A stretch of 43,283 nucleotides of DNA, from positions 128,785 through 172,067 of the forward strand of contig JAHDCV010000001.1 in NCBI GenBank assembly GCA_020629695.1, written 5' to 3'. This DNA is from Acidimicrobiales bacterium. GTDB taxonomy: Bacteria; Actinomycetota; Acidimicrobiia; Acidimicrobiales; SZUA-35. This document shows positions 10,080 through 25,243 of the stretch, one piece after another. Under the pieces are notes generated by a model. That model was not told where the DNA came from. It saw only the letters and a list, made by a program, of their open reading frames with translations, and did not search any database. The translations under genes and the position numbers were made by a program. Numbering within the stretch: position 1 is the stretch's first letter; each line of letters begins with the position of its first letter.

Positions 10080-10930
10080 CCGAGCGCCGCCCCCGACGAC
10101 CCGGCGCCCTCCCGGACAAGATCGATCTCGATGCACCCCGTCGTCGTCGCCCGACCTACCCGGATCATCCGGCGACGCCCGGACTCCGCGTCCGGCATCG
10201 CAGCTCGGGCACCACCGGCACGGTCCGGCGGTTCCGAGCCTCCCACGTCGAGATCGAGACCCGATCGGGCCGGATCGAACTGCTGCCCATCTCGCCGGGG
10301 GCCTTCGAGGTCGCCGGTGCCGACCGTCGCCCCATGGCGGTGTCGCTCGTCGCTCCTCCGAAGGCCAGCCCGAAGTCGACCACGATCACCGCCTCGGGCT
10401 CGGTCTCGGCCGGCGAGACCGCCGCCCGCGTGGCCCGCGCCTCACGGATCCTCGTGGAGGGTCGCCACGACGCCGAACTGGTCGAGAAGGTGTGGGGCGC
10501 CGACCTCCGTGTGGAGGGCGTGGTGGTCGAACCGTTGCACGGCGCCGACGATCTGGCCTCGGTCGTCCGCACCTTCGGTCCTCGCCCGGGCCGGAGGCTG
10601 GGGATCCTGCTCGACCACCTCGTGGACGGATCGAAGGAGTCCCGGATCGCCGCCGGGGTCGATCACCCCGACGTGCTGATCACCGGCCACCGCTACGTCG
10701 ACATCTGGCAGGCCGTTCGACCGGCCGCGGTCGGCATCCCGGCCTGGCCGGTGATCCCGAAGGGTCAGGACTGGAAGCGCGGTGTACTGCGGGAGCTGGG
10801 GGTGAACGTCGAGCCGGGCCAGTTCTGGCAGGCGTTGCTCGGCCGGGTCGGGACCTACGCCGACCTCGAGGCGGACCTCGTCGGCGCGGTCGAACAGCTC
10901 ATCGACTTCGTTGCACCCCCGGAACCGTGA
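10076..10930 (+). CDS. DUF3097 family protein, possible TOPRIM-like nuclease
   Basis: A 284-residue actinobacterial DUF3097-type protein. The basic N-terminus (to about residue 40) precedes a small SH3-like stretch (GTTGTVRRFRASHVEIETRSG). The central part reads RILVEGRHDAELVEKVWG with E128, then VVVEPLHGADDL, then LGILLDHLVDGSKE with D180 and D184; this order of Glu, strand, helix and acidic loop resembles TOPRIM domains such as RNase M5, although the acidic pair is D-x3-D rather than D-x-D. Function is not established. Start ATG 10076 overlaps the SGNH stop. Its 3' end overlaps the convergent GGDEF-EAL gene by 32 bases. Confidence 0.85.
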   Translation: MTERRPRRPGALPDKIDLDAPRRRRPTYPDHPATPGLRVRHRSSGTTGTVRRFRASHVEIETRSGRIELLPISPGAFEVAGADRRPMAVSLVAPPKASPKSTTITASGSVSAGETAARVARASRILVEGRHDAELVEKVWGADLRVEGVVVEPLHGADDLASVVRTFGPRPGRRLGILLDHLVDGSKESRIAAGVDHPDVLITGHRYVDIWQAVRPAAVGIPAWPVIPKGQDWKRGVLRELGVNVEPGQFWQALLGRVGTYADLEADLVGAVEQLIDFVAPPEP

Positions 10931-12515
10931 GCGACGGCGGCGGGCCGGCCGGTTGCGGTGCGTGCTGGGCCTGGCCCGCTTCGTTGCGGAACCATGCGGC
11001 GGGGTTGATCTTGTCCGACGGCACGGGCGGGTTGAACAGGTAGCCCTGCTGGATGTCGACCCCGAGCTCCATGAGCTGGCGTGCCTGCTCCGGGGTCTCC
11101 ACGCCCTCTGCGACCACGGTGAGGCCGAGGGCGGTGGCCATCGAGACGATCGCGTCGATGATCGCGGTGTTCACCGCACCGTTGCGCATGTCGTGCACGA
11201 AGGACTTGTCGATCTTGAGGGACTCGACCATGTCGAACTGCTTGATGTAGCTGAGCGATGACTGGCCGGTGCCGAAGTCGTCGATCGCCAACCGCACACC
11301 GAGTGCCCGGAGCTCGCGCAACACGTTGAGGCCGTCGAGATGGTCGACGATCACGTCCTCGGTGATCTCGAGCGTGAGCTGCGAGGGCGGCAGACCCGAC
11401 CAGCTCAACACCTCCGAGACGAGGAAGGGGAAGGTGTTGTCGAGCAGCTGCTGCTCGGCGACGTTCACTCCGATACGGACGTTGCGAGCACCGGGATTCT
11501 GGTGATTCCACACGGCGAGCTGGGCGCAGGCCTCGCGGAGCACCAGCTCGCCGAGGCGGGCCATCATGGCGGCCTCCTCGGCGACGGGCAGGAACGCCCC
11601 CGGGCCGAGCAGACCACGGGTCGGGTGGTTCCACCGGATCAAGGCCTCGAACGACGAGAGCTTCTGGGTCCGCACGTTCACGAGCGGCTGGTAGTGGACC
11701 ACGAACTGGCTCTCGGAGAACGCCGAGGTGAGGTCCCGCTCGGTGTCGAGGCGGACGACGGCCGCCTTGCGCTGCTCGTCGTCGAAGATCGCATACCCCG
11801 ACTTGGCCTTCTTGGCCTTGTACATCGCGGCATCGGCGTCACGGACGAGATCCTCGGCCGTACGCACGTCGCCGGGCCGGGAGACCGCGATGCCGATCGA
11901 GGTCGACATCACCTGCGAGCCACCTCGGAGCGAGATCGGTTCGTTGAAGGCCTTGAGGATCGACTTGGCGACGGCCGTCACCGAGGCCTCCGAGATCAAG
12001 TCGCGGCACACGACGACGAACTCGTCACCACCGAACCGGCCGACGATGTCGGAGGACCGCACGGTCTTCTCCAGTCGGGCCGCGATGATCCGCAGCAGCT
12101 CGTCGCCGGCGTCGTGGCCCATGGAGTCGTTGATGACCTTGAAGCGGTCGAGGTCGAGGAAGAGCACGCCGACGACCGTGTCGGAGGTCTTGGCCCGGTC
12201 GATCGACTCGCCGAGCTCGCGGAACAGACCGATCCGATTCGTCAGTCCGGTCAACGTGTCGTGGTTCGCCTGGTGCTCGGTCTCCGCGAGATAGCGATGG
12301 TCGTGGCGGGACCGCCATGCGATGACCAGGGCCGCCAGTGTGGCGGCCGCAGCCGTGGCCAGAGACGCTGCGAGGCGTTCGGTCACCGATCCACTGTCGG
12401 AGAAGATGGACACGACGAGCGTCCAGAGGAGCGCGCCGGCCACACCGCCGGCCAGGACCCACATCGGTCCGCGCAGCTCAGATCGCCCGTTCGTCATCAC
12501 CTGTACTAACGGCAC
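10899..12515 (-). CDS. GGDEF-EAL cyclic-di-GMP signalling protein
   Basis: A 538-residue membrane protein with two predicted N-terminal helices (about 17-38 and 48-67) and a very short outside loop. The GGDEF domain has an intact active site GGDEF (162-166) and an RSSD inhibitory I-site five residues before it. The EAL domain is also intact by motif: FEALIRW (290-292), EITED, IDDFGTGQSSLSY, LKIDKSFV, EGVET and QGYLF. Both synthesis and hydrolysis of c-di-GMP are therefore possible. No sensory domain is recognised. GTG 12515 is used; ATG 12497 is an alternative start. Regulation of the balance cannot be read from sequence. Confidence 0.92.
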   Translation of the reverse strand: MPLVQVMTNGRSELRGPMWVLAGGVAGALLWTLVVSIFSDSGSVTERLAASLATAAAATLAALVIAWRSRHDHRYLAETEHQANHDTLTGLTNRIGLFRELGESIDRAKTSDTVVGVLFLDLDRFKVINDSMGHDAGDELLRIIAARLEKTVRSSDIVGRFGGDEFVVVCRDLISEASVTAVAKSILKAFNEPISLRGGSQVMSTSIGIAVSRPGDVRTAEDLVRDADAAMYKAKKAKSGYAIFDDEQRKAAVVRLDTERDLTSAFSESQFVVHYQPLVNVRTQKLSSFEALIRWNHPTRGLLGPGAFLPVAEEAAMMARLGELVLREACAQLAVWNHQNPGARNVRIGVNVAEQQLLDNTFPFLVSEVLSWSGLPPSQLTLEITEDVIVDHLDGLNVLRELRALGVRLAIDDFGTGQSSLSYIKQFDMVESLKIDKSFVHDMRNGAVNTAIIDAIVSMATALGLTVVAEGVETPEQARQLMELGVDIQQGYLFNPPVPSDKINPAAWFRNEAGQAQHAPQPAGPPPSLTVPGVQRSR

Positions 12516-12598
12516 GCGGAGCCGGAATGTGAGACCTAATCCGCGGCGGTCGAATCACCTCTCGGCGGGGGCTCAGGACCTCGCTCATCGTGCCGATG

Positions 12599-13384
12599 AT
12601 GGACACAGACATGTCCTCTGCCCCTCACCACCGCCCGGACCTCGATGTGTCCCGACACTCCCTCCTCGGCGAAGGCTTCCAGCGCCTCGCCCGTGGACTC
12701 GGGCCGTTCATCGATCCCCGCATGGCGGAGTACTTCGACGATGCCGACACCTGGACCGACCTCGCGGCGGATCGGATGGGGCGGGGCGTCGAGCCGGGGA
12801 CGTCGGATCCGCTGTTCCAGCTGCTCGTGCTCCGGCGGTTCTGGGGGCCGGTCTTCGCCGAGCACTTCCGCGACGATCTCCGGCCACTCATCGGCCAGCT
12901 GATCGAAGCCAGGAACCTGTGGGCGCACTTCTCGCTTCCCGACGACCCGGACTATCTCGACCGCATCCTGCTCGGGCTGGAACGCCTGTTGGCCCCGGTC
13001 GAGCCCGAGGGTGCGTCGGAGTTGCGGTCGTTGCGTTCCCGGTTGCGGGATCCCGCAGCCGACGACTCGGCGCCGCCGGATCTGCCCGCCGATCACGACG
13101 GTCCCGACCTGGAAGCGCAGCTCTCCGAGACCGAGATGGCCTTCGAACGTCTCCAGGACGAACACATGAGCCTGGCCCGCCAGCTCGAGCATCGGCGGAT
13201 GTCGGAGGCCGGAGCCAAGCTCCAACTCACCGCGGCCGAACAGCGCCTGCTCGAACTCCAGGCACGTTCGGCGGCGCTCGAGGAACAACTCGTCACCTCC
13301 GACATGAGCCGGGACCGGCTCGAGTGGCTCTTCGTCTCCTTCCTCGCCGTGCTCCTGCTCGTCATGGCGCTCGCCGTCACCTGA
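12599..13384 (+). CDS. Swt1-type HEPN domain protein with coiled coil and C-terminal membrane anchor
   Basis: A 261-residue protein with three parts. Residues about 25-115 look like a Swt1-like HEPN domain: FIDPRMAEYFDDADTW, SDPLFQLLVLRRFWGPVF and the R-x4-H signature in ARNLWAHF (R105 to H110), the catalytic pair of HEPN ribonucleases. Residues about 155-235 form a long Gln/Glu/Leu-rich coiled coil. The last 20 residues (WLFVSFLAVLLLVMALAVT) form a single helix reaching the C-terminus, a tail anchor. ATG 12599 is chosen because CATCGT precedes it by seven bases; GTG 12590 and ATG 12596 are in frame. No antitoxin or ATPase partner is adjacent. RNase activity is inference. Confidence 0.75.
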   Translation: MDTDMSSAPHHRPDLDVSRHSLLGEGFQRLARGLGPFIDPRMAEYFDDADTWTDLAADRMGRGVEPGTSDPLFQLLVLRRFWGPVFAEHFRDDLRPLIGQLIEARNLWAHFSLPDDPDYLDRILLGLERLLAPVEPEGASELRSLRSRLRDPAADDSAPPDLPADHDGPDLEAQLSETEMAFERLQDEHMSLARQLEHRRMSEAGAKLQLTAAEQRLLELQARSAALEEQLVTSDMSRDRLEWLFVSFLAVLLLVMALAVT

Positions 13385-17039: not shown

Positions 17040-17867
17040 GTGAGCGTGACGACCGAGACCTACATCTCCCTGAAGATCGCAGCCGAGAAGCTCGACCTGC
17101 ACTACATGACGGTGTACCGCTACGTCCGGACCGGACGACTGCCCGCCGTCAAGGTCGACGGCGAATGGCGCGTCCGACAGTCCGACGTGGACTTCCTCGG
17201 CGCGGACGGCGCCGACCGAACGCCGCGGCCGCGCGAAGAACAGCGACCGGCACTCGAGGAACGGATGATCGCCGGCGACGAAGCGGGAGCCTGGCAGATC
17301 ATCGAGCTCGCGCTCGGCAGTGGAGCCGACGTCGAAGAGGTCTACCTCAAGCTCCTCATCCCGGCGATGCGCAGCATCGGCGACCGCTGGGAGACCGAGG
17401 ACATCTCGGTGCTCGACGAGCACCAGGCAACGGCCGTGGCCACCCGCATCGTCGCGCGGTTGGGTCCGATGTTCCGCCGCCGGGGCCGCCGCCGCGGCGT
17501 GGTCATCATCGGCGCACCCGCCGGCGATCCCCATGCCCTGGCTCCCGCGTTCCTGGCCGACCTGCTCCGCGGTCGACGGTTCGAGGTCCTGGACCTCGGA
17601 GGCAACACACCAGCCGAGAGCTTCGTCGAGTTGGCGAGCAAGACCGATGGTGTCCGAGCCGTCGCGATCTCGGCCACCGCACCCGACAACCTGGACGTCG
17701 TCACCGAGACGGTCGCCGCGATCCACGACGCCTGTCCCGGAGTGCCCGTGCTGGTCGGCGGCCACCTCATCAGCTCGCGCGAGGTCGCCGAACAGGTCGG
17801 TGCCGACGACTGGGCACCCGATGCCGAGGGTGCACTCGAGCTGTTCGAGGAGATCCTCGTCCGCTGA
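17040..17867 (+). CDS. HTH (excisionase-type) cobalamin-binding regulator 1, CarH-like sensor
   Basis: A 275-residue regulator. Residues 7-52 form a winged-helix DNA-binding head of the excisionase/HTH_17 type (SLKIAAEKLDLHYMTVYRYV then GRLPAVKVDGEWRVRQSDV). A four-helix bundle follows, then a B12-binding Rossmann domain. Residues matching the AdoCbl photoreceptor CarH are present: W117, then E127 and H128 ten and eleven residues later (W-x9-EH), and H165 in GAPAGDPHAL as lower cobalt ligand. It may therefore bind adenosylcobalamin and sense light or B12 status. GTG 17040 follows TATTAT (17013-17018) and a palindrome. A paralogue lies at 24416. Neither has the DxHxxG of B12 enzymes. Confidence 0.87.
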   Translation: MSVTTETYISLKIAAEKLDLHYMTVYRYVRTGRLPAVKVDGEWRVRQSDVDFLGADGADRTPRPREEQRPALEERMIAGDEAGAWQIIELALGSGADVEEVYLKLLIPAMRSIGDRWETEDISVLDEHQATAVATRIVARLGPMFRRRGRRRGVVIIGAPAGDPHALAPAFLADLLRGRRFEVLDLGGNTPAESFVELASKTDGVRAVAISATAPDNLDVVTETVAAIHDACPGVPVLVGGHLISSREVAEQVGADDWAPDAEGALELFEEILVR

Positions 17868-24415: not shown

Positions 24416-25243
24416 ATGAACGTCGATGCGGCAGAGGCCGCCCCGGTCTCGCTGCGCGAAGCAGCCGAGCGACTCGGCGTGCACTACATGACGGCCTATC
24501 GCTATGTCCGCCTCGGCCACCTGCCGGCCGAGAAGGTCGGCGGCCAGTGGCAGATCCAGCTCGACGATCTCCGGAATCTCACGGACGGACCGCCGCCGAC
24601 CGAGCCCATCTCGCTCGAGACCGCCGCCGAGGATCTCCACAGCGCACTCGTCTCCGGTGATGAGGTCGCGGCCTGGCGCATCGTCTCGAACGTCGACCTC
24701 GAGCCGGCGAGGATCTACACCGAGCTGCTGGCGCCGGCGATGGTCGACGTTGGCGCCCGTTGGGCCTGCGGCGAACTGACGATCGCCGACGAGCATCAGG
24801 CGACCGCGGTGGCGACCCGCGTCATCGGTCGCCTCGGACCCAGCTTCGCTCGGGCCGGACGCAAGCGGGGCAAGGTCATCGTCGGCGCACCGGCCGGCGA
24901 CCACCACTCACTTCCGAGCACGTTGTTCGCCGACCTCATCCGCTCACACGGACCCGAGGTGATCGACCTGGGTGCCGCGACGACCCCGGAGGCGTTCGTC
25001 GAGGTGGTTCGACGCCACGAGGCCCGCGTGGTCGTCGTGCTGTCGGTGACCGCATCGGATGCGTTGGACGACGCGGCGGACACGGCCAAGCGCCTGCGTG
25101 AGGAATGGCCGGATCTCTGCGTCGCCATCGGTGGCCGTGCCGTCACCTCGGCGCAGCTGGCGGACGAGCTGGGATCCTCGCTCTGGGCCCCGACGCCCGA
25201 CGAAGCCGCCGCCGCGATCGCCGCGAGCTCCCTGCACGCCTGA
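24416..25243 (+). CDS. HTH (excisionase-type) cobalamin-binding regulator 2, CarH-like sensor
   Basis: A 275-residue paralogue of the protein at 17040, equal in length. The DNA-binding head SLREAAERLGVHYMTAYRYV then GHLPAEKVGGQWQIQLDDL is close to that of regulator 1, especially the recognition helix HYMTxYRYVR, so the two may share DNA targets. The CarH-type W-x9-EH set is W116, E126 and H127, and the candidate cobalt ligand is H164 in GAPAGDHHSL. The shared stretch DEHQATAVATR is identical in both. It is separated from regulator 1 by parC-parE, DUF2510 and EEP genes. Light or B12 sensing is inference from these residues. Confidence 0.87.
   Translation: MNVDAAEAAPVSLREAAERLGVHYMTAYRYVRLGHLPAEKVGGQWQIQLDDLRNLTDGPPPTEPISLETAAEDLHSALVSGDEVAAWRIVSNVDLEPARIYTELLAPAMVDVGARWACGELTIADEHQATAVATRVIGRLGPSFARAGRKRGKVIVGAPAGDHHSLPSTLFADLIRSHGPEVIDLGAATTPEAFVEVVRRHEARVVVVLSVTASDALDDAADTAKRLREEWPDLCVAIGGRAVTSAQLADELGSSLWAPTPDEAAAAIAASSLHA

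Follow-up and report, generated by a model that had tools for sequence, protein, structure and literature searches.

The protein described here, encoded by a gene of Acidimicrobiales, combines an N-terminal HEPN domain of the Swt1 type with a coiled coil and a C-terminal membrane helix, and we assign a probability of roughly one in two to the proposal that it is a dimeric, membrane-tethered chromosomal endoribonuclease used in ordinary RNA turnover or regulation. HEPN ribonucleases are best known as toxins and anti-phage effectors. The present gene is old in its family, vertically inherited, dispensable and under purifying selection. Throughout, the window denotes the whole stretch of DNA analysed, 43,283 nucleotides in length; the features discussed are collected in Table 1.

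Table 1. Positions in the window of the HEPN gene, its parts and its two neighbours
Feature	Position	Strand	Size or basis
Whole gene: HEPN, linker, coiled coil, C-terminal membrane helix	12599..13384	+	261 aa
Swt1-like HEPN domain (predicted), residues 17-134	12647..13000	+	PF18731 on 26-134; AlphaFold helices; structure match of 13-153 to 4pqz
R-x4-H motif, R105-N-L-W-A-H110	12911..12928	+	invariance among full-length relatives
Variable linker, residues 151-167	13049..13099	+	low family identity; low pLDDT at 156-166
Coiled coil (predicted), residues 168-238	13100..13312	+	heptad test; weak coiled-coil profile matches; model helix 168-260
C-terminal membrane helix (tail anchor, predicted), residues 239-261	13313..13381	+	hydropathy; conservation
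GGDEF-EAL protein, divergent neighbour	10899..12515	-	Pfam GGDEF and EAL
Short-chain dehydrogenase, ∼50 bases past the HEPN stop codon	13434..14204	+	context only

Reading Frame and HEPN Domain

The frame is open throughout from the ATG at 12599 to the TGA at 13384 and encodes 261 residues, other possible starts being the ATG at 12596 and the GTG at 12590. Judged by the codon usage of the neighboring genes, it scores as coding. No promoter or terminator pattern, tRNA or Rfam match was found in the window.

A preliminary description, made from the letters of the sequence, had identified a stand-alone HEPN domain, and comparison with the profile of the Swt1 type bears this out. PF18731 (Pfam HEPN_Swt1) matches residues 26-134 with an E value of 4e-11 and 43.6 bits, against a curated cut-off of 27.5 that the relatives L032, L035 and L039 likewise exceed. 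The remaining Pfam matches of the window protein are weak and fall on the coiled coil; NCBIfam and PADLOC also give weak matches alone, confined to that part, and in PADLOC-DB no model lies over the HEPN domain, the best, LmuB (E 0.0035), covering the coiled-coil part only. R105 and H110 are held, as had been stated, in the sequence ARNLWAH. In an alignment of 37 full-length relatives (28 from the window's family, one from f23 and eight of the f51 type) R105, N106, W108, A109 and H110 are each invariant, 37/37, and the R-x4-6-H motif of an active HEPN ribonuclease is thus present in every member.

A good AlphaFold model was obtained with nine sequences, seven of them HEPN domains taken from DUF499-type proteins on viral contigs, a two-sequence alignment having led to a poor HEPN model with pLDDT under 50 over the domain. 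The mean pLDDT of the good model is 83.7, with values mostly near or above 90 in the HEPN part and near 75 for residues 51-70. Helices span residues 14-45, 49-59, 71-80, 92-110, 117-131 and 136-150, and a single continuous helix extends from 168 to 260. Among solved structures the top Foldseek match is yeast Swt1 (4pqz), with an E value of just 0.31, and a second aligner also places 4pqz first, with a Z of 8.6 over 124 residues. By the tool's own warning such Z values can be common among helical domains and bundles, and for this reason the HEPN fold is assigned from profile and model taken jointly. Approximately 12 of the top 19 structure rows are, by title or recall, HEPN structures, including AbiF, HEPN-MNT toxins and Csm6′. 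A sequence search of solved structures with the window protein alone gave no match; with the family profile the best 60 of 128 matches were nearly all coiled coils (residues 106-255), and no HEPN entry was among these 60. The window protein is thus predicted to contain a Swt1-like HEPN domain of helical fold, in agreement with the fold expected from the preliminary description, and the structural match is a modest one.

Coiled Coil and Membrane Helix

Residues 168-235 show heptads, scoring 0.425 where shuffled sequences average 0.168 (p 0.0028), and heptads are significant in 36 of the 37 full-length relatives, L035 being the exception. The coiled-coil stretch of the family profile weakly matches coiled coils of solved structures. 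Earlier this region had been described as a coiled coil of 80 residues; the heptads and the model helix uphold the coiled coil itself, but its length is nearer 70. In the f51 type the coiled coil ahead of the anchor is longer.

The last 19 residues have a Kyte-Doolittle mean of 2.64 with nothing following them, as compared with 0.76 for the next best stretch, and all 37 full-length relatives carry a membrane helix at the C-terminal end with at most 5 residues beyond it; the earlier reading of the terminal hydrophobic helix as a membrane anchor is thus supported. Within the helix R240 and E242 are found in 28/28 family members and W243 in 27/28, a degree of conservation that appears to exceed what a bare anchor needs.

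Distribution, Constraint and Inheritance

The protein is present without internal stops in 28 of the 39 genomes of the window's GTDB family, 25 of which give one match and three (G023, G029, G030) two matches that are pieces of one frame. A search of the order gave matches at E 0.001 or better in 60/297 genomes. Reading of the rows yields 21 full-length proteins among these, 12 from the window's family, one from G060 (f23) and eight from f6, f11 and f51; the other 39 have the HEPN part in common only, mostly within frames of ∼1100 residues. Of two samples of the phylum, one gave matches in 17/396 and the other, searched for PF18731, in 28/326, with 25 above cut-off. When 26 PF18731 frames were read with the HEPN profile a strong C-terminal membrane helix was seen only in L173, L174 and L177, all from Acidimicrobiales, where the ∼1100-residue frames were read in part (an anchor may lie further on) and L176 and L179-L181 were unmatched by the HEPN profile. 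The family profile matched 37/296 in a sample of the class, nine through the full-length type, all nine in the window's order.

Two side observations concern HEPN frames. L165 and L178, two of the 26 read, are without the loose R-x-x-W/L-A/V-H pattern. L204 (G275:C39:201500-205500, minus strand) is an odd fusion, a frame of 347 residues with a Swt1-like HEPN domain (RHRWAH) and an apparent methylguanine-DNA methyltransferase domain whose PCHRVVHE we take to be the motif of that enzyme.

The HEPN domain is the most conserved part of the protein, with a mean identity to the window protein in the family of 63%, followed by the membrane helix (52%), the coiled coil (38%) and the linker (24%); members of the far group, the f51 type, are only 32-37% identical to the window protein. 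For the HEPN domain dN/dS lies between 0.02 and 0.11 in six of seven same-family pairs, the seventh being saturated and not computable, and these values are to be read qualitatively because many dS exceed 1. The lone f51-type pair gives 0.33 in the HEPN domain and 0.69 over the whole gene, so that constraint is less clear in the far group. In Mantel tests the pairwise identities of the HEPN protein correlate with those of three neighbors, the GGDEF-EAL protein (r 0.65), DUF3097 (r 0.83) and a glutaredoxin (r 0.32); a value as high arose in 0/2000 permutations for each of the first two and in 9/2000 for the third. Two family genomes keep the flanking genes but have lost this one, whose product is therefore not essential for RNA decay.

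Searches of 50,697 phage and 72,556 plasmid records gave zero matches, on which basis the identification of the gene as a mobile element was rejected. Relatives do occur on viral contigs (L099-L109, several from the same contig), with the match confined to the HEPN part and without the full architecture; PADLOC typed the L099 protein only, as HmaC.

Genomic Neighborhood

The preliminary description had found no partner adjacent to the gene, and here it needs correcting: a GGDEF-EAL gene is the divergent upstream neighbor in 19/19 family loci fetched (of the 28 gene-bearing genomes), though it survives alone as well. Downstream, a short-chain dehydrogenase is found in 11 of the 19 loci, and genes homologous to 17925 and 20373 of the window, presumably gyrA and gyrB, often come next. 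The HEPN/GGDEF-EAL pair is kept in L072 and L076, where the surrounding gene order is altered. The f23 locus and eight f51-type loci are without the GGDEF-EAL neighbor, and in three of these eight (L086, L091, L092) a divergent HTH-B12-binding protein takes its place.

The 11 family genomes with no match fall into several groups. In four (G007, G011, G025, G027) the GGDEF-EAL gene is at a contig end, where absence of the HEPN gene cannot be told. In G034 and G026 the GGDEF-EAL and downstream genes adjoin with no HEPN gene in between, and G002 has the GGDEF-EAL gene without the HEPN gene, while no clear orthologue of the GGDEF-EAL neighbor was found in G001, G022, G032 and G038. An obligatory partnership with the GGDEF-EAL protein was rejected, since this protein persists without HEPN in G034, G026 and G002.

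Several further features of the loci were recorded. The GGDEF-EAL gene beside the lost HEPN gene of G026 (G026:C38:59874-61412) carries an internal TGA, perhaps from decay or an assembly error. In L066, L067, L068 and L069 there are ∼900 extra bases, relative to the window, between the HEPN gene and the dehydrogenase. Two related HTH genes, at 17046-17867 and 24416-25243 of the window, flank the gyrase-like genes. The loci they match are the same, and B12-binding domains are present in the first of the two. In L086, L091 and L092 a homologue is the divergent neighbor of the f51-type HEPN gene.

A PADLOC scan of 10 neighbors of the window gene found no specific defense gene and no methylase or helicase. 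The possibility of a defense island was rejected, the PADLOC matches being an ABC-F ATPase and an HTH protein only, which were read as shared domains.

Proposed Function and Alternatives

We envision a single-pass, C-terminally anchored protein with the Swt1-type HEPN domain atop a coiled-coil stalk of ∼10 nm, the length of a 71-residue coiled coil. Since the anchor ends the protein the HEPN domain should be cytoplasmic. The coiled coil and the membrane helix would pair two copies, and a dimer is made plausible by the predicted coiled coil. HEPN ribonucleases need a composite active site of two HEPN domains, and with two copies paired the two R-x4-H motifs would face each other and so form such a site. 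RNA would be cut close to the cytoplasmic surface of the membrane, and the cutting would belong to the ordinary RNA turnover or regulation that this lineage encodes on its chromosome, a physiological and not an anti-phage role. A resident, membrane-tethered endoribonuclease would be the simplest account, and a stress or housekeeping role in membrane RNA metabolism seems to fit better than defense, which is not favored by distribution and context.

Of the alternatives, the one to which we give most weight, albeit a clear minority share of our belief, is a membrane-anchored abortive-infection or stress effector that is inactive at first, is switched on when an entering phage or stress on the envelope alters the coiled coil or the membrane helix, and then cuts host RNA so that growth stops. 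It retains this share because the closest relatives sit in defense systems: they are HEPN domains of HmaC/DUF499 proteins, placed in BREX-related defense by a 2026 paper (PMC12839542). The dispensability of the gene and the near invariance of R240, E242 and W243, beyond the need of a bare anchor, would also suit such an effector. Against it stand vertical inheritance in a fixed neighborhood, the absence of mobile relatives in the phage and plasmid records and of specific defense neighbors among the 10 scanned, and a strongly constrained HEPN domain without sign of rapid evolution.

It is less probable, and in our opinion unlikely, that the protein is a non-catalytic or weakly catalytic tether, with an HEPN domain that binds RNA or a protein and is brought to the membrane by the stalk. 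The top structural match, the eukaryotic Swt1 HEPN domain, is said to be motif-less and RNA-binding (PMC3710099), which would agree with a tether. Unlike in eukaryotic Swt1, R and H are invariant in 37/37 relatives, and R, W, A and H in 15/15 DUF499-type domains.

Control of the HEPN RNase by membrane cyclic-di-GMP signaling, with the GGDEF-EAL protein as partner, is suggested by the divergent arrangement in all 19 family loci, the rearranged L072 and L076 included, but we consider it improbable in light of the three genomes that keep GGDEF-EAL without HEPN and of the f23 and f51-type relatives that have no such neighbor; moreover, no motif connects the two proteins.

A toxin whose antitoxin is encoded elsewhere is very hard to credit, even with HEPN domains being common as toxins (PMC3710099), given that no fitting small gene is adjacent and that the loss in G034 is clean, leaving no orphan between the flanking genes. 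The intergenic spaces on either side of the HEPN gene are ∼80 and ∼50 bases, too short to accommodate an antitoxin gene, and the neighbors are the GGDEF-EAL protein and the short-chain dehydrogenase, not the adjacent nucleotidyltransferase antitoxin of HEPN-MNT pairs.

The preferred reading, a resident endoribonuclease, may be extended with an account of its origin that we offer tentatively, with the odds well against it. One branch of Acidimicrobiales would have domesticated a defense-type HEPN domain, of the HmaC/BREX-related kind, and made of it a chromosomal endoribonuclease anchored in the membrane. With the catalytic domain first, then the coiled coil and last the anchor, this enzyme would have the mirror-image layout of RNase Y in an order without RNase Y, and it would shape RNA decay near the membrane. 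If true, this would constitute a route from a defense domain to a resident cell function.

Comparison with Known Systems

The nearest known domains are, by sequence comparison, the HEPN domains of HmaC/DUF499 proteins. When the family profile is compared with a profile of the HEPN domains in the long proteins, the two match with a probability of 99.8% and an E value of 8e-28; two of the long proteins, typed with PADLOC, are HmaC and adjoin HmaB methylases. When 54 HEPN domains are placed on an unrooted tree, a branch of support 99/94 splits the tail-anchored from the HmaC-type domains, which is consistent with one origin of the tail-anchored form and gives no direction of descent. HmaC, the HEPN-DUF499 ATPase of Hma, a BREX-related Type-1 system, has in common with the window protein an N-terminal Swt1-like HEPN domain with R-N-x-W-A-H, and R, W, A and H are found in 15/15 HEPN domains of long DUF499-type proteins. 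The window protein differs in that it has neither the DUF499 AAA+ ATPase nor an HmaC match, with a coiled coil and a membrane helix instead, and its gene, in contrast to Hma and Type-1 BR systems, is without methylase or helicase neighbors among the 10 scanned. A 2026 paper counted HEPN fusions in DUF499 systems of BREX-related defense and proposed HEPN as a possible last-resort suicide effector (PMC12839542).

Yeast Swt1 (4pqz), whose C-terminal HEPN domain is the first structural match of the window HEPN domain in both aligners, has an additional PIN nuclease and an HEPN domain reported inactive; in eukaryotic Swt1 the domain reportedly no longer has the motif and binds RNA (PMC3710099).

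A second comparison is one of layout. The window protein and RNase Y both have a membrane anchor and a long coiled coil, with the anchor at opposite ends. In RNase Y the anchor is N-terminal, and KH and HD domains are present. That RNase Y is anchored in the membrane is stated in PMC7029143. The NCBIfam model TIGR03319 (RNase Y) has no match in the window protein and no sequence relation was found; "mirror-image RNase Y" would be an analogy only. RNase Y is over cut-off in 0/39 genomes of the family and 0/297 of the order, with RNase E/G over cut-off in 38 of the 39. Replacement of RNase Y by the HEPN protein was rejected, there being no correlation: families without the HEPN gene are likewise without RNase Y.

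An HEPN domain followed by a coiled coil and a C-terminal anchor was not found described in the open-access literature. Membrane-associated HEPN proteins, the Swt1 type included, were predicted in 2013 by Anantharaman et al. in three other layouts, with the Swt1-type HEPN domain after a membrane helix, or with an N-terminal HEPN domain split from a Zn-ribbon by two helices (PMC3710099). As compared with their group 2 (helical domain, TM, Swt1-type HEPN; same source), the window protein has the HEPN domain at the N-terminus and the membrane helix last. The same text predicted membrane-localized RNA degradation by HEPN proteins and likened it to that of eukaryotic Ire1 (PMC3710099). A vertically inherited, tail-anchored HEPN protein with its motif intact across a family would provide a clear, testable bacterial case of that prediction.
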